From a virus: a DNA stretch of 20,862 nucleotides. The stretch covers positions 1-20,862 of the IMG/VR virus record IMGVR_UViG_3300027833_000256. One strand, given 5' to 3'. The stretch's first letter is position 1, and every line of letters starts with the position of its first letter. This document shows, piece by piece, positions 3,249 through 19,739 of this stretch. Below the pieces are notes generated by a model. That model saw nothing but the letters and a program-made list of their open reading frames with translations. It did not search any database and had not been told where the DNA came from. A program made the translations under genes and the position numbers.

Positions 3249-4724
3249 ATGCCAACACCAGTCACACCAGTACAACCAACGCAAACACCGTATAGACCAT
3301 TTGATATGGCCTACGGCGCTAATACTATTACACTCCAAGGTATAACACCTACACAGCAGAAGTATGCCTTACAGATCATTATAGTGGGTCAAGCCGATGC
3401 TATTGCAGATATTAGACAAACACCTAATAGATATGCAGTAGCTATCTTTGATATACAGAACATCTTACAGACACAGGTACAGCCTACTATTAATAACGTA
3501 GATGGACTACACTACGTCGATGGTGGATTTGCACAACAGAACACTAGAATGCAGATAGCCAATGGAGAACTAGTACAATACCAGATCGCATATACCACAG
3601 AGACTAACGGGCAATTAGATGACCCGTTCGTTGTATCACCTATTATCTACACAACACTCGGAGGTAGCAAAGAGTATTGGCAAGTACCCTATGATGAAGG
3701 TGCAGAGTTTATACCTATTGTAGATGCTGATGTCAATGGTTGTACCGATATTAACTATTGGGCCAAGCCACTCTCAGATAACACATGGACTATCTCTGAC
3801 CAAGACACAGGAGATAGCTTCCTCACGGCCAACGGAGGCTACTCTTCACCAGGTGGTATCGATGTTCACAATGTTTATAGAGATGATCAGTGTACCAAAT
3901 CCTTTTGGCAAACACCTTTTAGACTATCCTCACCCTATCCGCCTAACACAGCGGTACAGGGTATAGAAGGTTTCTGGATACTGCAAGTTAACGCTGCAGG
4001 TAATATTTTTGATACCACCTTCTTAGCCAATACTCAATCGAGTGGAGGAGGACCTAACGTCTCATTATATCAGGGACTCATACCATCTGGTAACTTTAAT
4101 GTAATTACACTAGCAACAGGCCCTGCTAACTTTCCATACGGTCAACTAGATCCAACGACTACTCACTATTATATAGTGCCAGTCTTATACTCACCTCAAT
4201 CATGTAGCCCGGATCCACAAGCACAGGCTAACCTAATGAATGAGTCAGCATGGAGAACACAGAGATACAATATCTTAGAGGCTCCATGTAATGATTATCC
4301 ACATGTACAGTTTGCATGGTTAAACTCAAAGGGTTACAGAGATCAATTCACCTTTACTAAGAAGAACGAGAAGAGGATAAATACTAAGAGGAATAACTTT
4401 CTTAAAGAGGCCGCAGATTACAATGACACTAGATATATTGTTAATAAGCAATCAAGAGGTTTCACAACTTACTCACAGTCTATTAAAGAGGACTGGACTG
4501 CTATGTCAGGGTATATGAATGATGAAGAGGCAGCCTTAATAGAGTCTATGTTTAAATCACCACAAGTTAATGTGAGATTCTCTACTGGTGAATACGCAAA
4601 CCAGTGGTTACCTATTAATCTTATTAGTAGTTCATACACTGAGAAGACTTATAGAAAGGATAGACTATTCCAATACACAGTTAACTATAAGTTAGCCAAC
4701 AACATTAAATCACAAAGAGGATAA
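3249..4724 (+). CDS. Tail structural protein of unknown role
   Basis: This 491-aa protein is rich in Asn, Gln, Thr and aromatic residues, as is typical of phage beta-structured virion proteins. It lacks a signal peptide and membrane segments. The N-terminus is Pro/Thr/Gln-rich, followed by strand-like repeats. The C-terminal 150 residues are more compact and charged (FTFTKKNEKRINTKRNNFLKE, then YTEKTYRKDRLFQYTVNYKLAN). This C-terminal part resembles a conserved type in uncultured marine and Bacteroidota phages, although I cannot name a family. Its position between the gp10-like protein and the large hub protein suggests a distal tail or baseplate component. Gaps of 3 bp on each side show it is part of one operon. 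The gene is certain; the function is only structural by context. Confidence 0.6.
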   Translation: MPTPVTPVQPTQTPYRPFDMAYGANTITLQGITPTQQKYALQIIIVGQADAIADIRQTPNRYAVAIFDIQNILQTQVQPTINNVDGLHYVDGGFAQQNTRMQIANGELVQYQIAYTTETNGQLDDPFVVSPIIYTTLGGSKEYWQVPYDEGAEFIPIVDADVNGCTDINYWAKPLSDNTWTISDQDTGDSFLTANGGYSSPGGIDVHNVYRDDQCTKSFWQTPFRLSSPYPPNTAVQGIEGFWILQVNAAGNIFDTTFLANTQSSGGGPNVSLYQGLIPSGNFNVITLATGPANFPYGQLDPTTTHYYIVPVLYSPQSCSPDPQAQANLMNESAWRTQRYNILEAPCNDYPHVQFAWLNSKGYRDQFTFTKKNEKRINTKRNNFLKEAADYNDTRYIVNKQSRGFTTYSQSIKEDWTAMSGYMNDEEAALIESMFKSPQVNVRFSTGEYANQWLPINLISSSYTEKTYRKDRLFQYTVNYKLANNIKSQRG

Positions 4725-4727
4725 CAC

Positions 4728-7700
4728 ATGATACAACTTAAGGTTTACAAACAAGGTACCCCCTTTATACTTGATCCAGTAACAGGCAATGAAATAATTG
4801 ATGAAGCTGGTTCACTATATTTAGATCTATATGAGACAGAGCCAATTAAGTTAACTCTTAGTATAGAGGATATAACCAACGCTGATGCATCCTCGGTATT
4901 CTCTAAGACATTCCGAGTTCCTGCGACTAGAGATAATAACGAATTCTTTGAGAATGCTTATGCAATAGACGGAATTGATTTTGATGTAACTGTAAAGAAC
5001 CAGGCTGAAATCATAGTAGATGGAGCAGAGTTTAGAGAGGGTCATATTAGACTACAGAAGATCTACACTAATGACGACCTAGATCGTATAGACTATGAGT
5101 TACTCTTCTTAGGTGAGACCCGAGACTTTAGTAGTATCATCGGTGAATCGACTATGTGTCAAATGAACTTTAGTGATTTCACTTGGGAAGATAACACTGG
5201 CGCGACCTACGTAGAATACACAGATTCACTAGACTACTTCGGAGCCTATGATAGAACAGATATCATAGATTCATGGGAAGCCTATTATGGTGATACTCCA
5301 CTAGTACCTGGTAATCCACTACCTGCACTAACAGATGGTTTTGCAGCTGGTAATATTCTATTCCCTCTTATTAATCATGGTAATACCTATAATGAGAATA
5401 ATGATGCAAATGAAGGTCGTATTGCCCTAGGTGGTAATGCTGATAGATCATTTACTACTAATGGTGGTGCATGGGCTCTAGCGGCTAGCCGAATGAAACC
5501 AATGATCAGAGCTAAGAGAGCATGGGATCAGATCTTTGAGGATGCAGGCTATACTTATACGTCTGATTTCTTATTGTCTCCCAAGTTCCATCAAATGTAT
5601 ATCAGTGCATTCGGTAATAACGAATCCATTGAAATGGAAGTTGACCAAACAACTGGAACTGTCTTTGAGTCTAATGAAACTATTAACGGTACAAACAATA
5701 TAGGTGAGTACATGTACAATAGTAATACGGTACAAAACGCCTCTAGTAATTACGATGAGGGTACTCAAATCACTGGTAGTAAATTTACTGTGCCTGTTAC
5801 TGCTACTAGTACTCAGTATTATATAATGTCTGTGTCAGCACAAATGGCTGCAGAATTTGAGACACCATCAGATGGTTGTTTTCCTACCGCCTGTTTCTTA
5901 AGATTAGAAATGAATGTTGGTGGTACGCTAACTACACTAGCTACTAGTAATGGCGTAACGAATATGCAACAGGCATCCTTGACTTGGGATTCACGTAATG
6001 ATCCCTCTGTTAGTGTACCTGCCGGTGCTATAATTAAAGTGTATCTAGATAGTGATGACCAACCAGATTGTGGTCAAAATGTAGATAATACCTACTGGGA
6101 CTGTACTGCAGCACCTGGTGACTATTACGCACCACTAGACTTAGATTGTGATTACAAACAAATAGATTTTATTAAGGATGTTCTTACTATGTTTAGACTA
6201 GTAATGCAACCTGATAATAAGAGGCCTAATAACTTTATTATAGAACCATGGCAAGATTTCATTGGCTCTGGGGTTACCTATGACTGGTCTCATAAACTAG
6301 TCCAAGATAAAGATATGGTATTAGAGCCTCTGTTTAATACGCAGTCATCTACTATAGAATTCTCTAAAGCAGCGGATGATGATTTTATTAACAAGTTCCA
6401 CCAAGACAATAACAAAAACCCTTATGGCTACTTACAATTTAATTCAGCTAATGAGTTACTAAAAGGTACTCGTAAGATTGAAGTAAAGGGTATATCGCCA
6501 ACACCACTAGATCAGATAGATCATAACGCTGCAACAAACCAGCAACCAGTACCACAGTGGGTAATACCAAATATCTATGAGTTAACTGGAGATATATCTA
6601 CAGACGGCTATCCGTTACAAGTGGCTATTAAACCTAATACTAGATTCCTATTCTATAATGGTAAACAAACAGGCTATCCTGGTTTACCAATTGGCTTGCC
6701 ATCTGCAGACCTATGGTACCTAGTAAATAATACGGCGCTTGGTTATTGGCCGATGGTATCCCCATATTCTAATTGGCCGGTACAACAGACATCGTTAAAC
6801 TTAAATTTCTCTAACGACACTAGATACTATATTGACCCAACACCAGGCGCTGGTTATTTTGAGCAAGGCTCTACACTATTTGATGCATACTGGTCACGTT
6901 ACATTTCATCACTATACGATAAGTACAGTAGAAGGTTAACGGCTAAGTTTATCTTAAACAATGTGGATTTACAAGATCTTACATTCGATGATGTTATTTT
7001 TGTTAATGGTAAATACTATAGACCTGAAAAGATTATCGATGCACAAGTAGGTGCTGAGACTGAAGTAACATGTCAACTAATTACTCTTGGTGATCAGAGA
7101 CCAGTATGGTTAGACTTACCGCTCAATGGATTCTCTGTAGTGGTTTCTAATGGCAATTGTATTGGTGAACAAGGTAATATACAAATAACAACAGGTGGTA
7201 CGCCAGCGTTTACCTGGGAGCTTGATGTGAGCGGCGCACAGGGTACTGCAAACCCTGGAGGTACTGCACCATATACTTTTACAATAGATGCACCAGTAGG
7301 TATTGATACACTTACAGTTACTGACTTATTTGGTAGAACAGCACAAGTACAGGTGAGCGTACCTGCAAGTACAGCGACACCGGTAACCAGTACATTTACT
7401 CAACTAGATCCTACAGACTGTACTGCACCTTGTAATGGTGAGATTGATGTAACACCAGCTGGTGGAGCAGGAGCACCTTACACTGTAATATGGAATGACG
7501 GAGTTACACAAGAAGATAGAACTGGCTTATGTCCTGGTAATTACCAATACTATGTAGAAGATGTTAACGGATGTCAATCAGATATTTTTAACGTTGACCT
7601 AACATGTCAGATAGAAGATATTAGATATCAACTTAGAGAACACCTAAACAACTGTACTCAATCTAGTTCAGCAATATACATTGCTACTTCTACTTCTCAA

Positions 7701-8702
7701 TTACCAATTAATCAAACAGTTACTCTTAATGAAAGAGCTGGATGTTATTACGTTCAGGCTCTAAGTACTGATACAGCTCTTTATACTATAGATGCACTTT
7801 CTGTAGATTGCGTATCTTGTAATGGTGGAACTGCTCTTAGTTATGAAGTAGAAACATGTGGCACTGGAGCTAATACTTATTATGCAAGTAGAAGTGGATC
7901 ACCGCTTTCACCTGGAGATGTAGTACAATTAAGTAATGATCCAGGATGTTACGAAGTAATAGGTGATTCAACAAATGCACCAGATAACGATGTTACAACA
8001 ATTCATAGAGACTGCGCAGGATGTACTGGTACAACTGTATACAAATATAAGTTCTTAAGTTGTGATGGTCTATTTGATGGACCGATAGAATCACCAGTAC
8101 AATTAGCACTAGGTAGTTTTATAGATATTACACCTGGTCCTGGTTGTGGTTCAGTATATGCAAACACTGCTGAATCTCCAACATACACATGGAATGGTCA
8201 ACTTCTATATGAAGACTGTGATGCTTGTAATGGTATTGCACCACCACCTGCACAGAACTGTCACTTAATTGGAAATGGAGGCCTAGTAGTAGCACAGGGT
8301 ACTTATATACTTAATGGATCCACATTTTCATGGACTGTTAAACCTGGTACTACGAGCTCGTATTGTGCAGAAGTTGGTTCGGTTGTAATTACTTCAGGTA
8401 ATGTAGTTACAATTAACGATCAAGGTAATGCATGTACTCAACCAGGCGATTGCTTAATTGGCCCACCTCCTCCAAGTGTTTATACTATTGAAGATTGTGC
8501 AACTAGCGCTCTATTTACAATGGACGATCAAGGTAGTCAATTCCAAATAGGTGATGTAATACAGTATTATGCAAATACACAAGGAACAGGTGCTAGGTAT
8601 TGTGGAACCGTCATAAACTATACAGGTACCACATTAAATGCATTCTTAGCTAACCCATTTGTATCGTACTTCTGTGGAGACACAATACATTGCGCGGAGT
8701 AA
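4728..8702 (+). CDS. Large tail-tip or hub protein with SprB-like and Cys-rich C-terminal repeats
   Basis: This is the largest gene in the window (1324 aa). Residues 1 to about 800 form the virion part. The opening is a strand-rich segment with KTFRVPATRDNNEFF and IRLQKIY..DLDRIDYELLFLGET, a type I associate with tail-hub or baseplate proteins of Bacteroidota phages. Residues 802 to about 890 look like a degenerate Ig/SprB-like domain. Residues 893-960 are a clear SprB-type repeat (C..PCNGEIDVTPAGG, PYTVIWNDGVT, LCPGNYQYYVEDVNGC). Residues 961-1324 contain about five cysteine-rich units of about 70 aa, most ending in DCxxC or similar. No signal peptide is seen. It sits between the tail protein and the tape measure, where siphophages carry tail-tip genes. 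The C-terminal modules are probably exposed and involved in host contact; that is inference. Confidence 0.65.
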   Translation: MIQLKVYKQGTPFILDPVTGNEIIDEAGSLYLDLYETEPIKLTLSIEDITNADASSVFSKTFRVPATRDNNEFFENAYAIDGIDFDVTVKNQAEIIVDGAEFREGHIRLQKIYTNDDLDRIDYELLFLGETRDFSSIIGESTMCQMNFSDFTWEDNTGATYVEYTDSLDYFGAYDRTDIIDSWEAYYGDTPLVPGNPLPALTDGFAAGNILFPLINHGNTYNENNDANEGRIALGGNADRSFTTNGGAWALAASRMKPMIRAKRAWDQIFEDAGYTYTSDFLLSPKFHQMYISAFGNNESIEMEVDQTTGTVFESNETINGTNNIGEYMYNSNTVQNASSNYDEGTQITGSKFTVPVTATSTQYYIMSVSAQMAAEFETPSDGCFPTACFLRLEMNVGGTLTTLATSNGVTNMQQASLTWDSRNDPSVSVPAGAIIKVYLDSDDQPDCGQNVDNTYWDCTAAPGDYYAPLDLDCDYKQIDFIKDVLTMFRLVMQPDNKRPNNFIIEPWQDFIGSGVTYDWSHKLVQDKDMVLEPLFNTQSSTIEFSKAADDDFINKFHQDNNKNPYGYLQFNSANELLKGTRKIEVKGISPTPLDQIDHNAATNQQPVPQWVIPNIYELTGDISTDGYPLQVAIKPNTRFLFYNGKQTGYPGLPIGLPSADLWYLVNNTALGYWPMVSPYSNWPVQQTSLNLNFSNDTRYYIDPTPGAGYFEQGSTLFDAYWSRYISSLYDKYSRRLTAKFILNNVDLQDLTFDDVIFVNGKYYRPEKIIDAQVGAETEVTCQLITLGDQRPVWLDLPLNGFSVVVSNGNCIGEQGNIQITTGGTPAFTWELDVSGAQGTANPGGTAPYTFTIDAPVGIDTLTVTDLFGRTAQVQVSVPASTATPVTSTFTQLDPTDCTAPCNGEIDVTPAGGAGAPYTVIWNDGVTQEDRTGLCPGNYQYYVEDVNGCQSDIFNVDLTCQIEDIRYQLREHLNNCTQSSSAIYIATSTSQLPINQTVTLNERAGCYYVQALSTDTALYTIDALSVDCVSCNGGTALSYEVETCGTGANTYYASRSGSPLSPGDVVQLSNDPGCYEVIGDSTNAPDNDVTTIHRDCAGCTGTTVYKYKFLSCDGLFDGPIESPVQLALGSFIDITPGPGCGSVYANTAESPTYTWNGQLLYEDCDACNGIAPPPAQNCHLIGNGGLVVAQGTYILNGSTFSWTVKPGTTSSYCAEVGSVVITSGNVVTINDQGNACTQPGDCLIGPPPPSVYTIEDCATSALFTMDDQGSQFQIGDVIQYYANTQGTGARYCGTVINYTGTTLNAFLANPFVSYFCGDTIHCAE
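7404..7607 (+). repeat. SprB-type repeat within the tail-tip protein
   Basis: Residues 893-960 of the 1324-aa protein match the SprB repeat pattern: a Cys followed by a Gly-rich stretch (CNGEIDVTPAGG), the PYTVIWNDG strand pair, the L..G.Y turn (LCPGNYQYYV), and a closing D-NGC. SprB repeats are known from giant surface adhesins of gliding flavobacteria. The preceding 90 residues look like a decayed relative of the same fold (GNIQITTGGTPAF, then APYTFTI and TVTDLFGR). Confidence 0.75.
7608..8699 (+). repeat. About five cysteine-rich protein repeats
   Basis: The C-terminal 364 residues of the tail-tip protein divide into about five units whose ends lie near 7820, 8024, 8228, 8453 and 8699. 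Units 1-3 share Y..xxC near the start, a G-x-V/I turn in the middle, GCYxV or GCGxV, and a terminal DCxxC (DCVSC, DCAGC, DCDAC). Units 4 and 5 are looser but keep C...YC..V and a terminal Cys pair. The regular spacing suggests disulphide- or metal-stabilised beta modules arranged as beads. Confidence 0.7.
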
Positions 8703-10552: not shown

Positions 10553-12298
10553 ATGAATAAAATAGTAGAACTAATAGTAAACATGGAGGAATTCGAATTC
10601 GAAGACCTTGGAGTAGAGATTTTATCCTTAGTAGATAAACCTGCTATTGAAGTAAATTGGATGGCTTTCGCAAAAGAATTAGAATTCAGAGAGAATCCAG
10701 ATTGCCCAGATGGATGGGAACATCACATGCCTGACGGTTCATGGATGTGTGGTAAGACAATGGGTTACGTAGATAATACTGGCTTTGAAAAGTTTGAAAC
10801 ATTCTTTAATGCAAATCTAGATCTATTTAAGAAACCAGGCGTTGGCGCAGCTGGAGATGGTGGTGTAAATCACGCAGATCAAATGAAAATGCTAAATGAA
10901 GCTGGCATCAATACAGAATATCCGTTTGGTTACTGCTTCCAAGTAGCACAATTCTTATTCTATGCAACCGGTGGTTACTCAGGTGATTACGCACTTAAGT
11001 GTATTAAAGGTATGCATTACCAAGTAGACGGTGTAGACTTTGCATCAACTCACTGGTATATTCAACATAAAGATAATAATACGATAGTAGACCTTACGGC
11101 ATCCCAGTTCGAGGGTTTACTTGATATCAATGATTACTATGCTTCAGGCAGGAACGCGAACCTGGGCTATCCATATTACAACGTGGGCGATGATAGAGTA
11201 GAGTTTGATGAGACAGTACCAAGTTTCCAAACACTTAAGCTATATAGTAAGTGGAGAGAAGATAATAAGGAGATACCAGTACTAGAAGACTACTACGCTA
11301 AAGCTAAATACGAAGAACTACGTAAAGAGTTTACAGAAGAATCATTTGCAATATCTACTAATGAAGTAGATGATCAGCTATCTACGTATCATGAATATGT
11401 ACTTAGAGTTGCAAGGTCATCAGGATATCCATTTAACGCTGAAGATGTTATTTATGTTGATGGTACTAAACAGGGCTTTGAAACAATCAGTGATTTTTTA
11501 CAAGGTGCAAGAGCACTTGACGCATTAGGAGATCTACCAACAAATACACCAGCGAGAGAAGTATTTAGATATACAGGACCTGCAGGTGAGCGTGGATTTT
11601 GTAGAGTTATGATGGCGGTTAATAGAGTCTATACTTATGACGAAATTACTTTAATGAATAATTTTAATTCGTCGTTTGGACATAATAAGCAAGGCTATAG
11701 TATCTTTGAATACGGCGGAGGTCCTAACTGCCAACATTACTTTGAGAGATTAATACAATATCAATCTGGTGGTAAAAGCGTTTTAGTTAGTATGGGACCT
11801 GCTGTAGGCAATGCTGGTAAAACTAATAATAGAAACTATAAGTCACCTACTGGTGCAGTAGCTAACAACGGCTATTACTTTAATAGCAATAAAACATGGT
11901 CGTTCTCTGATGATGACAAGATGATTGTTACAGGACCCGCGATGATAGCCAATCAGCTTATAGCTAGAAAGGATGAAATGGGTAATCTATTTCATGTATA
12001 TTTTAGTAAAGAGACTATTGCTACTATTGCTAAAAAGTTCTTAGCAGATAATAACGCACATAATACAGATATAAATCATAATGGCGAAGTAACTAATGAG
12101 AATACATTATTAGAATCGTGGATTGTAGATGACCCTAAAATGGATAAGTCAACTGCTCTAGGATTTAATGTACCTGAAGGAACTTGGATGACGTCAATGA
12201 AAATTAATAACAGAGATACCTGGAATAAAATTAAAGCTGGAGAACTTAATGGTTTTTCCGTAGAAGGTTCCTTCCTAGAGGTCTTACAAAAGAATTAA
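10553..12298 (+). CDS. Composite XkdF-like prohead protease with an embedded papain-like domain
   Basis: This 581-aa protein is far longer than a plain XkdF-type protease. The N-terminus (FEDLGVEILSLVDKPAIEVNWMAF, about 16-39) matches the start of XkdF-like proteins. Next comes a small Cys/His motif (C51, H57, H58, C66 in NPDCPDGWEHHMPDG..MCG). Residues about 105-205 look like a papain-fold domain: GYCFQVAQFLFY (C128), STHWYI (H167) and VDLTASQF (D180) give a Cys-His-Asp triad. Residues about 340-400 resemble the Cys/His-rich tail seen in phage minor head proteins (GFCRVM C350, GGGPNCQHYF C393/H395). Residues about 455-581 are the protease core (TGPAMIANQLIAR, INHNGEV with H509, LESWIVDDPKMDKS, GFSVEGSF with S569). 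The core should cleave scaffold and capsid precursors. Lying between tape measure and capsid genes fits head maturation. Confidence 0.8.
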   Translation: MNKIVELIVNMEEFEFEDLGVEILSLVDKPAIEVNWMAFAKELEFRENPDCPDGWEHHMPDGSWMCGKTMGYVDNTGFEKFETFFNANLDLFKKPGVGAAGDGGVNHADQMKMLNEAGINTEYPFGYCFQVAQFLFYATGGYSGDYALKCIKGMHYQVDGVDFASTHWYIQHKDNNTIVDLTASQFEGLLDINDYYASGRNANLGYPYYNVGDDRVEFDETVPSFQTLKLYSKWREDNKEIPVLEDYYAKAKYEELRKEFTEESFAISTNEVDDQLSTYHEYVLRVARSSGYPFNAEDVIYVDGTKQGFETISDFLQGARALDALGDLPTNTPAREVFRYTGPAGERGFCRVMMAVNRVYTYDEITLMNNFNSSFGHNKQGYSIFEYGGGPNCQHYFERLIQYQSGGKSVLVSMGPAVGNAGKTNNRNYKSPTGAVANNGYYFNSNKTWSFSDDDKMIVTGPAMIANQLIARKDEMGNLFHVYFSKETIATIAKKFLADNNAHNTDINHNGEVTNENTLLESWIVDDPKMDKSTALGFNVPEGTWMTSMKINNRDTWNKIKAGELNGFSVEGSFLEVLQKN

Positions 12299-12299
12299 C

Positions 12300-12461
12300 A
12301 TGATAGCAGAAACTAAAGATTCAATTGCAAACATCACTACTATTACAGCAGCTGGTAGCGCAATGGTAGACTTTAACAGTATATTAACGATGGCTCTAAT
12401 CATCACAGGTATTATACTGAACATTATTAGAATAAGAGCACATAGAAAGAAAAAAGACTAG
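12300..12461 (+). CDS. Small single-pass membrane protein, possible holin or spanin-like protein
   Basis: This 53-aa ORF begins 1 bp after the protease stop. It has a polar N-terminus (MIAETKDSIANITTITAAG), one hydrophobic segment (about residues 26-45, ILTMALIITGIILNII) and a basic tail (RIRAHRKKKD). Small phage proteins with one membrane segment and a charged tail are often holins or other lysis factors. No endolysin is near, so the role is open. Its last codons form the left arm of a bidirectional terminator, and its stop overlaps the convergent gene by 4 bp. Tight spacing to the upstream gene and the membrane pattern support a real gene. Confidence 0.65.
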   Translation: MIAETKDSIANITTITAAGSAMVDFNSILTMALIITGIILNIIRIRAHRKKKD

Positions 12462-12475
12462 AATAAACTAGTCTT
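12454..12475. terminator. Bidirectional terminator
   Basis: AAGACTAG, loop AATAAA, CTAGTCTT forms a perfect 8-bp stem. It is followed on the plus strand by a T-rich run (TCTCCTTTT) and preceded on the other strand by A-rich sequence (AAAAAA before the stem). It sits exactly where two convergent operons meet and overlaps both 3' ends. Confidence 0.75.
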
Positions 12476-12667
12476 CTCCTTTTCCATTAGGTTTTTATAC
12501 TCACCATCTTTATTATAGGTAGTACCCTTTAGTATACACTTTATACTATTACGATTTAAGCCATACTGTTTACATAATGTATTAATACTAACACGGCCGA
12601 GATATTTCGCTCGTACCATGTTAGCATGTTCCATTGATAGTTTTGGTGGATTCTTTTTACCAGTCAT
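12458..12667 (-). CDS. Small helix-turn-helix protein (homing-type HTH)
   Basis: This 69-aa protein has a basic start (MTGKKNPPKLS), then a compact HTH: MVRAKYLGRVSINTLCKQYG as the helix and turn, and LNRNSIKCILKGTTY as the recognition helix. The pattern S-I-x-x-L-x-K-x-Y-G-L-N-x-x-S-I-x-x-I-L matches DNA-binding HTH domains attached to phage homing endonucleases, which also occur alone. It is the last gene of the five-gene minus-strand group, and its ATG overlaps the end of the upstream HTH gene by 11 bp. It could be a small repressor or a remnant of a larger selfish gene. Confidence 0.75.
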   Translation of the reverse strand: MTGKKNPPKLSMEHANMVRAKYLGRVSINTLCKQYGLNRNSIKCILKGTTYNKDGEYKNLMEKEKTSLF

Positions 12668-12806
12668 ATACTACTCTCTTTATAGATGACTGAGATCTTT
12701 TCATAATCTTTGCAATTTGTGATAATGAGTATTTTTGTCTACGATATTCTCTGATCATTTCTTTTTCAGAGCTACTCATGTGTGTGTGTCCTTTTGGTTG
12801 TTCCAT
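12657..12806 (-). CDS. Tiny helix-turn-helix protein overlapping the next HTH gene
   Basis: This 49-aa ORF runs from the ATG at 12806 (leader AAAAACAAATAATAATT) to a TAA at 12659-12657. An in-frame second ATG at 12779 would give 40 aa. The sequence SSSEKEMIREYRRQ, SLSQIAKIMKRSQSSIKRVVYDW reads as one HTH of the resolvase or sigma-like type. It aligns without gaps over 20 residues with the HTH of the next gene (S-L/I..I/L.K......SIK..V/I-V/L), so the two look paralogous. The ends overlap by 11 bp in different frames, which suggests coupled translation or a frameshifted two-HTH protein. Nothing shows its targets. Confidence 0.6.
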   Translation of the reverse strand: MEQPKGHTHMSSSEKEMIREYRRQKYSLSQIAKIMKRSQSSIKRVVYDW

Positions 12807-12825
12807 AATTATTATTTGTTTTTAT

Positions 12826-13137
12826 TTAGTTATTTGCTTCTATTGCGTCTATTGTTCTTCCAATATTTTCAAAGGCTTCTTTCATTCTTTTAGATCCATC
12901 CGCTCTTGTTATTCTAGAGTAAGGTCTAACCATCATACTATATCCTTTGTGCATTGCGTGGAAGGCTGCTCTCATACATGTATCCATTGTTAGTAAATGT
13001 TCGAAGTTTTCTTGAGTTGGAGATTCTAATGCTTCTGCATCGTTAGCCATTCTTTCTGCCATTTTAGCTACAACTCTTAATTCTGATGCTGTCATGTCTA
13101 GAAAGTCGTTGTAATTCTTTTTGTTAATTGATTTCAT
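12826..13137 (-). CDS. Hypothetical protein, helical
   Basis: This 103-aa protein has no membrane segment or signal peptide. It is predominantly helical, with repeated hydrophobic heptad-like spacing (MTASELRVVAKMAERMANDAEAL, about residues 15-37), a Met/His-rich middle (MRAAFHAMHKGYSMMVRPYS) and a charged end (KRMKEAFENIGRTIDAIEANN). I do not recognise a family. The start is supported by the A-rich leader AAAAACAAACATT directly before ATG. It belongs to the five-gene minus-strand group with HTH genes downstream. Real coding is likely from leader, codon pattern and tight spacing. Confidence 0.65.
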   Translation of the reverse strand: MKSINKKNYNDFLDMTASELRVVAKMAERMANDAEALESPTQENFEHLLTMDTCMRAAFHAMHKGYSMMVRPYSRITRADGSKRMKEAFENIGRTIDAIEANN

Positions 13138-13216
13138 AATGTTTGTTTTTAAATTGTTATTGTTATATTAGTTATATATCGCTTTATTCTTTTGTTTCAA
13201 TTGGTTCACAATTATT

Positions 13217-13441
13217 TTAGTGGACTCGACTCGAGTAGTAATTCATGTTTACTTTAGGGAATATCTTTTTACAATACGTAAAGTATGTAGTATAAGCTTC
13301 CTTACGTTCCTTAGAACCACGTGGAGATGATTCCCATGTTCGTAATGCATTCATAGTTACTGAATACAATTGATCACATGTAGTGATGTTGTTGTCGTCT
13401 AGCCATTTAATTTGGCGTGGTGTACATTTGTCTTTGTTCAT
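13217..13441 (-). CDS. Hypothetical small protein
   Basis: This 74-aa basic protein has a sequence such as CTPRQIKWLDDNNITTCDQL, then an aromatic and basic part (YTTYFTYCKKIFPKVNMNYYSS). There is no clear motif, membrane segment or signal. A short helix-turn-like N-terminus cannot be assigned to a family. The leader AAAAACAAATAAAA lies right before the ATG and overlaps the 3' end of the upstream gene: the AAAAACAAATAA string both encodes its last residues (KNK-stop) and serves as the leader. That shared use suggests coordinated expression. The 79 bp downstream, before the next gene, hold no clear promoter. Confidence 0.6.
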   Translation of the reverse strand: MNKDKCTPRQIKWLDDNNITTCDQLYSVTMNALRTWESSPRGSKERKEAYTTYFTYCKKIFPKVNMNYYSSRVH

Positions 13442-13443
13442 TT

Positions 13444-13665
13444 TTATTTGTTTTTAATTAGATTAATAATTTCTGATTCAGTGTTAACCATATCAAGTTC
13501 TGTTTGTGTAATAATAGCATTGTTACGTTTCTTAATGCTACCCATAGACCAACCATCCTCATCATTATTAAGATGGTAAGTTTTTTCACCAAACATCGCT
13601 TCAGTAAACTGATTAAGATGATAGTTGTTGTTACTTAAAATTTGTACTTTTTTTGAATTTGTCAT
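13444..13665 (-). CDS. Hypothetical small protein, first gene of the minus-strand group
   Basis: This 73-aa protein is charged and Asn-rich (MTNSKKVQILSNNNYHLNQF, then EKTYHLNNDEDGWSMGSIKKRNN and a helical acidic end). No known motif is visible. The start is preceded by TTAAAACAAATAAACATT, the same leader type found at 13441 and 13137. It is the first gene transcribed leftwards from the 13666-13886 control region, so it should be the most strongly expressed of the group. Function is unknown. Confidence 0.6.
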   Translation of the reverse strand: MTNSKKVQILSNNNYHLNQFTEAMFGEKTYHLNNDEDGWSMGSIKKRNNAIITQTELDMVNTESEIINLIKNK

Positions 13666-13886: not shown

Positions 13887-14468
13887 ATGACAGTACACGA
13901 CATGGTTAAAAAACTGAGAGTTATGCTCGCAGTAGACACAGCAGTTGTAACTGAAGCTAAATTTGCAGATGCAACTTTAGTAGATGGTACCGTGGTATAC
14001 ACTGAAGGTGAATTAGAGGTTGGCGCAACATTACTTGTAAGAGTTGATGAAGGCGAAGAATCTCCATACGCACCAGAAGGTATCCATGAGACAAACGACG
14101 GCAAGTTAATCGGTGTTGGTCCTAATGGTGAGATTATGGAAATCTCAGAAGTTGAAGCAGAAGCTAAACCTGAAGAAGTTATCGAAGAGGTAATGGAAGA
14201 GGTAGTAGTTGAAGCTCCGGTTTCTGACGCAGCTATACCAGCAACTGAAGAGTTGTTATCAGGTATTGCTGAGATGATTGCTCCTTTTACCGAAGAGATC
14301 GCAGCGTTAACAGAAGAAGTAACAGAACTTAAAGCTAAGTTCCAAATAATTGCAGATGAACCTGCAGCAAAACCAGTTAGAAACACGTTTAGCGAAAACA
14401 AAAAGATTGCAGACGATAGACTAGCAGAAAGAATGGATGCTCTAAGAGCGATCAGGACTAACAAATAA
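13887..14468 (+). CDS. Putative capsid scaffolding protein
   Basis: This 193-aa protein sits directly before the major capsid gene. Residues 20-90 form a strand-rich segment (DGTVVYTEGELEVGATLLV, PEGIHETNDGKLIGVGPNGEI). It is followed by a strongly acidic stretch (VEAEAKPEEVIEEVMEEVVVE, about 93-113), a helical coiled coil (MIAPFTEEIAALTEEVTELKAKF), and a basic C-terminus (NKKIADDRLAERMDALRAIRTNK) typical of scaffold proteins that dock on capsid protein. Scaffolds guide shell assembly and are removed or cleaved by the prohead protease. Position, charge layout and coiled coil support this; no family was recognised with certainty. The leader AAAAATAATAAAATT precedes ATG. Confidence 0.6.
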   Translation: MTVHDMVKKLRVMLAVDTAVVTEAKFADATLVDGTVVYTEGELEVGATLLVRVDEGEESPYAPEGIHETNDGKLIGVGPNGEIMEISEVEAEAKPEEVIEEVMEEVVVEAPVSDAAIPATEELLSGIAEMIAPFTEEIAALTEEVTELKAKFQIIADEPAAKPVRNTFSENKKIADDRLAERMDALRAIRTNK

Positions 14469-16018: not shown

Positions 16019-16047
16019 AAGGACTGCAGAAATGCGGTCCTTTTTTT
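16019..16047. terminator. Strong bidirectional terminator
   Basis: AAGGACTGCA, GAAA tetraloop, TGCGGTCCTT gives a 10-bp stem with one U-G pair, followed by a run of T (16041-16047). The opposite strand has an A-rich flank. It closes the tail tube unit and the convergent minus-strand gene, whose stop is at 16046. Confidence 0.85.
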
Positions 16048-16483
16048 ATATACAAGATATTACTCTATCAATATGTCTTTGTAAATTAGTATTACTTATT
16101 AGTACTCCACATTTAGGACATGGTGATTTAAGTTTTGGCAGACCTTTATTTGCTCTACCTGCCATTGCTTGATGTTCTTTAGTTTTAAGAGATGCAAAGT
16201 GACCCATGTCTCTTGTTGTAGTACCTCCTTTTCTACCAGCGGCTGCGGCAGTTTCACTAGTCCACTTAAATCTATTCTGTACTGATTTCCAATAAGGTAC
16301 TTTATCTACTGGTAATCCATAATCTTTCTGTAGTTGTATCTCTCTATCTGATACTTCATAAATACAATTATGTTCTTCTAAGATTTCCCATTGAGTAAAA
16401 CCTTGGTCACTCATTCTCTTATATAGATCTTTAGTACATCCAATCTTTTTACCTGGTATATGATATATTAAGTATGTTTTCAT
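16046..16483 (-). CDS. GIY-YIG-like homing endonuclease with zinc-finger C-terminus
   Basis: This 145-aa protein starts with a degenerate GIY-YIG layout: YLIY (residues 4-7), KKIGCTKDLYKRM (12-24, with R23 as the usual catalytic Arg position) and a helix with E48 in SDREIQLQKDYG, a candidate catalytic Glu. Residues 78-115 (AAAAGRKGGTTTRDMGHFASLKTKEHQAMAGRANKG) resemble the Gly/His DNA-contact repeats of homing endonucleases (NUMOD-like). C122, C125, H137 and C144 form a possible zinc finger (CPKC...H...C). Such genes spread between phages by cutting intron- or gene-less sites. It lies on the opposite strand between structural genes, beside a strong terminator. The fold is only a motif-level call. 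Confidence 0.7.
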   Translation of the reverse strand: MKTYLIYHIPGKKIGCTKDLYKRMSDQGFTQWEILEEHNCIYEVSDREIQLQKDYGLPVDKVPYWKSVQNRFKWTSETAAAAGRKGGTTTRDMGHFASLKTKEHQAMAGRANKGLPKLKSPCPKCGVLISNTNLQRHIDRVISCI

Positions 16484-17430: not shown

Positions 17431-18567
17431 ATGAGAAACACACCAGAAGGCATTTATTCAATTAAGGGATCAGAATTCCAAGCTATTGAATTACCAGAAA
17501 TCAAAGAAGTCAGAGGTAAAGATTACATCTACTATGGCGGAGACAACCTATTTCCACAATCATTAATTAAACTATATGACACATCTGCAATGCATCATAC
17601 TTGCGTTGACGCTATTACAGCTGGCATCGTGGGCGATGGTATTGAAACGATCGGAGACGAATATATTAACCAAAAAGGCGAAACAATTGATGAGATTTAT
17701 GAAAAGATTTCTTTAGATTACGTACTTTATGGAGGATATGCTGTTAACGTTATATGGTCTAAAGACCGTACAAAGATCTCGGAAGTATATCACTTACCAT
17801 TTGCTAATGTAAGATCAGGTAAACCTAATGAAGAAGATGTAGTAGAAGAGTACATGTACTCATCTGATTGGGCATACTTAAGAAAGAATCCTTATATTAC
17901 CTATAGAGCATTTGATGCTACAGATAATAAAGGTGACAATGCATCACAGATCTATTATTGTTATGGTTATACTCCTGGAAACGATGTCACTCCACTTCCC
18001 CAGTACATTGCGGCATTAAATGATATCAGTCTAGACGCACAAGTTAGTCGATTCCACGCAAACAATATAGCAAATGGCCTAGCGCCAAGTATGTTTATCG
18101 CGTTTCGAAATGGCACACCGACTCCGGAAGAAAGATCAAGTGTGTACAAAGAAATAGAAAAGACATTTACAGGTACAGAGAATGCGGGGCGCTTCTTTTT
18201 AAGCTTTTCAGAACCAGATAAAGTTCCAGAAGTAACTCCAATCGCATCGACAAACGATGATTATTACATATTATTAGAATCGCGTATATCGTCTAGAATA
18301 TTAACTGCGCATCGTATTACTAGTCCATTACTATTGGGTATCAAGGACAGTGCCGGTTTTAGCTCTAACGCGGAAGAGATTAAGGTTTCATACGCACACT
18401 TCGAAGGAACTGTAGTAGAACCTAAAAGAAAGAAGATATTATCTACATTTGGATATATTCTAAGATTAGCTGGTTACAACGTAGCTCTTAAAGTAAGACC
18501 TAATAAACTAGTTAATGAAGAACAAATAGAAGATACTAGACCACAAGAAAACATAGAATCACTATAA
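17431..18567 (+). CDS. Portal protein
   Basis: This 378-aa protein fits the dodecameric ring at the head vertex that the terminase docks on and DNA passes through. It shows the usual portal layout: an N-terminal helix-strand clip region with YYGGDNLFPQSLIKLYDTSAMHHTCVDAITAGIVGDG (about residues 34-70); wing strands with a YVLYGGYAVNVIW segment; a stem helix after DISLDAQVSRFHANNIANGLAP; and a C-terminal crown with SRILTAHRITSPLLLGI and HFEGTVVEPKRKKIL. The portal family is supported by this order and by the connector gene that follows with a 1-bp overlap (TAATG). It is short for a portal but within the range. The terminase gene is 16 kb away. Confidence 0.85.
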   Translation: MRNTPEGIYSIKGSEFQAIELPEIKEVRGKDYIYYGGDNLFPQSLIKLYDTSAMHHTCVDAITAGIVGDGIETIGDEYINQKGETIDEIYEKISLDYVLYGGYAVNVIWSKDRTKISEVYHLPFANVRSGKPNEEDVVEEYMYSSDWAYLRKNPYITYRAFDATDNKGDNASQIYYCYGYTPGNDVTPLPQYIAALNDISLDAQVSRFHANNIANGLAPSMFIAFRNGTPTPEERSSVYKEIEKTFTGTENAGRFFLSFSEPDKVPEVTPIASTNDDYYILLESRISSRILTAHRITSPLLLGIKDSAGFSSNAEEIKVSYAHFEGTVVEPKRKKILSTFGYILRLAGYNVALKVRPNKLVNEEQIEDTRPQENIESL

Positions 18568-19379: not shown

Positions 19380-19739
19380 ATGGATATAAAATTAGCGGTA
19401 CAAGATTACGTACAATGTATAACTAACAATGCAGTTACAACCCCTACTGGAGGTAGCTGGATGTCAGCACTATGTATTTATTATGGTATAACAGAACCAG
19501 TAAACGGTAGTTGGATTCAAGCTTATTGTGAATACTTAGGTATTACGCAACCACTATATGGTAGTTGGACTATTGCATTAGCAAATTATTACAATATAAC
19601 AGCACCTGAGAATGCCTCATGGTGGTGGGCAATTGCTAATGATGCATGTAATGGAACTCCACCAGTAGGATCATTCATATGGAATCAAAACGCAACGCAA
19701 TGGGAAACTGAAGTTAGAACTTGGTCTCTCACACCCTAA
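19380..19739 (+). CDS. Tandem-repeat protein of unknown function
   Basis: This 119-aa protein is built on an 18-residue repeat. Units run from residues 25-42, 43-60, 61-78 and 79-96. The first three share GSW, a helix with A at position 6, YY or YL, GIT or NIT, and P near the end. A decayed copy may span 7-24. The pattern GSWxxALxxYYGITxPxx suggests short amphipathic helices joined by turns, as in a small helical solenoid. The C-terminal 23 residues (VGSFIWNQNATQWETEVRTWSLTP) differ. It is Trp- and Tyr-rich, has no signal or membrane segment, and starts 1 bp after the holin stop. A fibre accessory or spike role is possible from its neighbours, not from the sequence. Confidence 0.65.
   Translation: MDIKLAVQDYVQCITNNAVTTPTGGSWMSALCIYYGITEPVNGSWIQAYCEYLGITQPLYGSWTIALANYYNITAPENASWWWAIANDACNGTPPVGSFIWNQNATQWETEVRTWSLTP
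19452..19667 (+). repeat. Four 54-bp (18-aa) tandem protein repeats
   Basis: Four units of 18 residues start at 19452, 19506, 19560 and 19614. The first three are GSW..AL..YYGIT.P.N, GSWIQAYCEYLGITQPLY and GSWTIALANYYNITAPEN. The fourth, ASWWWAIANDACNGTPPV, has lost the YYGIT part but keeps SW..A and PP. The DNA has diverged more than the protein, so selection acts on the protein. Confidence 0.8.

Follow-up and report, generated by a model that had tools for sequence, protein, structure and literature searches.

How does a single phage protein come to join the two ends of a head-maturation protease to a long middle part that resembles something else? The protein of 581 residues considered here is encoded by a single open frame in a 20.9-kb virus record, which was analysed over its whole length (20,862 nucleotides, called the window hereafter) and whose late genes, as judged by PHROGs, include those for terminase, neck, tape measure and portal. 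The initial annotation saw in it a merger of a prohead protease with a papain-like domain and a minor-head-like domain. Two enzyme-like centres are indeed apparent, but the fusion is not a fixed one: the middle part is made of cassettes stacked in a single slot of the protease. The frame itself is not an assembly chimera, since contigs from two independent samples (L001 and L002) encode proteins of the same length and architecture. Relatives were collected from IMG/VR, where a first scan gave 14 loci and a profile scan 347 relatives, of which 80 were used. The features of the gene are given in Table 1.

Table 1. Features of the head protease gene and the portal gene in the window.
Feature	Position	Strand	Evidence
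Whole gene, XkdF-type head protease with internal cassettes, 581 aa	10553..12298	+	ORF, PF14550
N, first XkdF protease segment, residues 4-39, DLGVEILSLVDKPAIEVNWM	10562..10669	+	own HMM E 6.9e-22, conserved in relatives
Cassette B, residues 45-72, CPDGWEHHMPDGSWMCG mini-domain, C51/H57/C66 invariant	10685..10768	+	HMM
Cassette P, residues 72-262, predicted papain-like / transglutaminase-like cysteine-enzyme domain	10766..11338	+	conservation, model, neighbours
C128, predicted nucleophile	10934..10936	+	in all untruncated members; helix N-terminus
H167, predicted catalytic base	11051..11053	+	invariant; on strand
D180, predicted third residue	11090..11092	+	invariant
Linker region, residues 263-337, in part common to cassette-free relatives	11339..11563	+	relatives' frames
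X, portal-C-terminus-like module, residues 338-422, C350/C393/H395 invariant	11564..11818	+	phrog_33693 443-516/560, P12024 portal
S, predicted XkdF serine protease core, residues 448-581	11894..12295	+	PF14550 at 452-573, E 5.6e-20
H509, predicted catalytic His of serine protease	12077..12079	+	invariant 62/62
S569, predicted catalytic Ser	12257..12259	+	invariant 62/62
Portal protein of phage, short form without X module	17431..18567	+	phrog_11226; phrog_33693 12-370/560

To judge from its sequence, the protein almost certainly contains an XkdF-type (assemblin-like) head-maturation serine protease core of a tailed phage. The PF14550 match has a score of 72.1 bits against a curated cut-off of 24, and E521, together with the predicted catalytic His and Ser, is invariant in all 62 relatives compared. 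The N-terminal DLGVEILSLVDKPAIEV segment is also conserved, and the proposal that XkdF-like ends bracket the middle part is borne out. A Pfam scan of the entire protein has XkdF as the only family to pass its cut-off; a hint of YunG is seen at residues 160-189 (E 0.06). The full-length AlphaFold2 model, made with 11 alignment rows, has a pLDDT of 42. Searches of the PDB for sequence relatives found none for P or X and none that was convincing for the whole protein, and models of defence systems gave no match.

The organization of the middle part becomes clear when relatives are compared. The shortest, of about 347 residues, are made up solely of N, X (a CxxH module) and S, the serine core; in the others all further sequence is inserted downstream of a 'W.AF' motif, near residue 41. 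In a census of 51 distinct full-length relatives, in which one HMM was used per element, 18 architectures were encountered, with zero to four cassettes per slot and six cassette types; in all 51 proteins cassettes were found only between N and X. Since the relatives were picked by similarity to the 581-residue protein, the following frequencies do not represent XkdF proteins at large: no cassette in 9/51, C alone in 11, C-E in four, and C-B and C-D in three each. Two proteins each have B-P (including the protein studied here), B, C-P, B-C-D, C-D-E, D-E, P-C-D and C-B-E, and one each P, E, C-D-F-E, C-D-E-B and C-F-D-E. The order of cassettes is not fixed: both C-B and B-C, P-C and C-P, and D-F and F-D occur.

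The contents of the slot also turn over. On a tree of the serine core, the minimum number of changes is at least 6 for P (which has 7 carriers among the 51), 8 for B, 9 for C, 4 for D, 8 for E and at least 26 for the architecture as a whole, counts that are only approximate because many inner branches of the tree are weak; a tree of 44 rows agrees. P is gained or lost among close relatives, and in pairs of close relatives the DNA stays nearly identical until the slot, where it switches to another cassette. The head protease has one fixed slot that accepts swappable cassettes, and there is little room for doubt on this point. It gives the impression of a vehicle whose passengers can be exchanged, not of an invariable machine with two proteases. 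In the open-licence papers that we searched such a slot is not described; nor did they yield a papain-like domain in a setting of this kind, a slot at a fixed place within the protease or reshuffling to this extent.

Cassette P holds the second centre. The C128/H167/D180 triad recognized at the outset lies at the residues named and is kept in every sufficiently long member of the domain family, even at 18-25% identity; the relatives do not lack it. In an alignment of 21 sequences H167, W168, D180 and Q185 do not vary, and no sequence that spans the position of C128 lacks this residue. An AlphaFold2 model of the domain (19 rows; pLDDT 84.6, pTM 0.83) places C128 at the start of a helix, H167 on a strand and D180 beside the following short strand, which, if the model is right, is the usual layout of the papain/transglutaminase-like fold. 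A Foldseek search with the model returned nothing significant (E 0.49 or worse). With a second structural aligner, the best 46 neighbours are nearly all papain/transglutaminase-type Cys-His enzymes (Z 2.3-4.2). They include SseI, TglA, PeiW/PeiP, protein glutaminases, LapG and arylamine N-acetyltransferases, as well as vasohibins, SpvD, NTAQ1 and staphopain, all of which we take to have one common fold. Each of these matches of the model is weak, and what counts is the mutual agreement of the neighbours. At the level of sequence, YunG (PF24585) is matched by 18 of the 21 members (best E 2.4e-5), the P domain of this phage scoring 16.9 bits, below the curated cut-off of 27.

From the model and its neighbours we consider it very probable that P has a papain-like fold and, with the conserved residues added, probable that it is an active enzyme. 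The initial annotation had postulated two proteolytic centres, one serine and one cysteine. The serine centre is strongly supported, and the second is enzyme-like by conservation, fold and neighbours; that it is proteolytic is not established. Protease would be an unsafe label for P, since its neighbours span proteases, deamidases, protein glutaminases and acyltransferases.

The other cassettes are of a different kind, five of the six types being small with two conserved Cys. The Cys/His motif that had been noticed ahead of P proved to be a separate mini-cassette, B, of the form C-x5-H-x8-C. Among its 12 copies the two Cys and H57 hold without exception; position 58 varies (H/E/R/K/Q), and H58 was rejected as a metal ligand. 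B is absent from L003, and in relatives it is found alone or in other orders. In isolated phages no B was found, nor any convincing match to C. F corresponds to DUF3721 of Pfam (E 3e-10). D occurs in 382 phage records, mostly of cyanophages, which include an annotated structural protein and a late-gene protein. E is found in prohead proteases and in portal-region and capsid-region proteins of haloviruses and of Roseobacter, Vibrio and Synechococcus phages. Matches of E to RpiB were far under the cut-offs and were treated as chance. In halovirus HGTV-1 (L122, 1636-4302), E and F (the latter identified by eye) are borne on the prohead protease, C-terminal to its core. E and DUF3721-like modules are common to archaeal viruses by this example, and a further 'VHSPEYSGT' domain lies behind the core of the same protein. 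The occurrence of D, E and F near or in head proteins of several viruses makes the association of cassettes with head proteins a recurrent one. For the five cassettes other than P, an effector role is not obvious from their sequences.

Beyond the slot lies the fixed module X. It contains the GFC...GGGPNCQH segment that the initial annotation had taken as typical of minor head proteins. The segment is real, but all 22 X members tested match the C-terminal end of the portal family phrog_33693 (best E 3.6e-20), and 0/22 match the MuF or minor capsid families of Pfam. In the Nonlabens phages P12024L/S, X is part of the portal gene (4722-4967; 39% identity, E 8e-13 by tblastn). In the phrog_33693 and P12024 portals X forms part of the C-terminal region, whereas here it is inside the protease and the phage's own portal is without it. 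In different phage lineages, the module appears to have changed place between portal and head protease.

Several other genes of the window deserve mention. The frame at 13887-14468 encodes a likely scaffold protein, whose end is similar to the C-terminal tail of the protease gene product of P12024S (33% over 60 residues, E 0.001 in a single comparison), which hints at a fusion of protease and scaffold in that phage and at separate proteins in the present one. Between the protease and scaffold genes is a cluster of short frames on the minus strand (12458-13665), and those tested have no Pfam match. A small frame within the head cluster, also on the minus strand (16046-16483), resembles by eye a homing endonuclease of the GIY-YIG type; it has no Pfam match. 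The Cys-rich protein of 1324 residues encoded at 4728-8702 has a weak SprB-repeat match (E 8e-4, below the cut-off) and possibly serves in the tail or in host recognition. A short protein made of imperfect 'YYGITxPxNGSW' repeats (19380-19739) is without a Pfam match. As to the host, three relatives of the head protease are held by one Flavobacteriaceae MAG, an indication, though no proof, of the host group; the host is probably a marine member of the Flavobacteriaceae. A P profile search of that MAG gave no match.

Relatives of P are found outside head proteases as well: in phage Mx1, in one 735-kb phage and in IMG/VR contigs, in the last both as small stand-alone proteins and as parts of large ones. 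The Mx1 relative is within a 1480-residue 'NUDIX hydrolase' encoded downstream of the major capsid gene, at a distance of about 3 kb. Among the large proteins, one (L108) has NUDIX and GNAT domains, and in another (L112) an ART-PolyVal domain adjoins P. Distant relatives of P are found in the 'polyvalent' multidomain proteins of phages, for which packaging and injection have been predicted (Iyer et al., 2017, PMC5512222). In such proteins an assemblin-like peptidase, if present, is always C-terminal, and of the four kinds of peptidase listed for them none is papain-like (PMC5512222). The present protein resembles them in uniting domains of disparate activity, a serine protease and a papain-like domain, in one chain encoded in a head gene cluster. 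Multidomain phage proteins that end in a peptidase are a known theme.

What could P be doing in a head protease? The explanation that we find best as a whole, and to which we would give about an even chance, is that the protease has a slot and that P is packaged and then acts on a host protein. Head-maturation proteases work within the procapsid. The slot of this phage, with B followed by P and then by the fixed module X, would offer a route into the head: as the protease is itself a procapsid component, whatever domain occupies the slot would be packaged alongside, and processing by the serine protease could free or trim the chain. P would then exit with the DNA and target a host protein early in infection, on which the C128-H167-D180 chemistry may effect cleavage, deamidation or acyl transfer. 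In SPN3US and T4, packaged proteins are processed in the procapsid and then ejected. That P is a packaged and delivered effector we regard as possible, somewhat short of an even chance. More tentative is a broader proposal, in which the head protease of marine phages would be a general cargo chassis whose reshuffled slot brings lineage-specific domains, effectors or accessories, first into the procapsid and from there into the host, the papain-like enzyme being one payload.

P could also remain at home as a second maturation enzyme in the procapsid, where it would cleave, deamidate or cross-link the scaffold, the capsid or its own chain, the serine and papain-like centres working in series. 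That P is lodged in the head protease, with the N segment ahead of it and the core behind, fits with such a task, and the transglutaminase-like TglA among its neighbours may point to an activity that would be attractive for capsid cross-linking. However, 44 of the 51 relatives do without P, nine of them without any cassette, and the serine core is kept. Self-processing, a role suggested for P at the outset, is less likely to be its core job given that most relatives lack it, and that P is optional speaks against capsid maturation depending on it. Were it needed for this step, P would not come and go among close relatives as it does, and the relatives of P in unrelated multidomain proteins also tell against a procapsid enzyme. 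We therefore consider this role, and with it two centres in series, quite unlikely.

The cassettes, P included, might instead be non-catalytic structural or targeting modules, stabilised by metal or disulfides, that tune scaffold-like packing, the portal/capsid interaction or head size. The size and paired Cys of five of the six types are in line with this; so are E, with its distribution over prohead proteases and portal- and capsid-region proteins of several viruses, and D, with its cyanophage structural and late-gene proteins. The recurrence of D and E in ordinary structural and head-gene proteins means that a structural role for cassettes would fit too. The triad of P is difficult to accommodate, however: its residues are among the most conserved positions of a domain that has otherwise diverged to 18-25% identity, and a pure structure would not need them. 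As an account of all cassettes we think it unlikely. As the inserts separate the first segment of the protease from its core, one could imagine them as inhibitory pro-segments that keep the serine protease inactive until assembly. Yet many relatives have no insert, cassettes that are unrelated and without common sequence would need to inhibit equally, and the E and F cassettes of HGTV-1 are C-terminal to the core, all of which leaves pro-segments very improbable.

If packaging of P for action in the host is the correct reading, a phage with a small genome could load new virion proteins by placing a domain in its procapsid-bound protease, proteins delivered by phages could be found at a single site of a familiar gene, and anyone wishing to load domains into capsids would have a natural place to insert them. 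Should the cassettes turn out to be structural, six interchangeable types in 18 arrangements would still make an unusual and testable pattern.

The protein shares features with several known systems and departs from each. With Peptidase_S78_2 / XkdF (PF14550) it has in common the core sequence, the invariant His and Ser and a location among head genes, but here a cassette stack of about 300 residues plus a portal-type module splits the protease; the compact XkdF relative of Nonlabens phage P12024 is without cassettes. The prohead protease of HGTV-1 also carries E and F (DUF3721-like) cassettes, but they are behind the core and do not split it, and no papain-like domain was seen there. P resembles YunG and the transglutaminase/papain-like enzymes in its H...DLTxxQF block, in the order of C, H and D and in its fold neighbours; unlike YunG, for which it scores below the cut-off, it has a longer helical C-terminal part and is embedded in a head protease. 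Finally, the likeness to polyvalent proteins (PMC5512222) extends to several unrelated domains per chain, a C-terminal assemblin-like peptidase and common relatives of P, whereas here the cassettes are inside the protease rather than ahead of it, occupy a single fixed position and are for the most part mini-domains.
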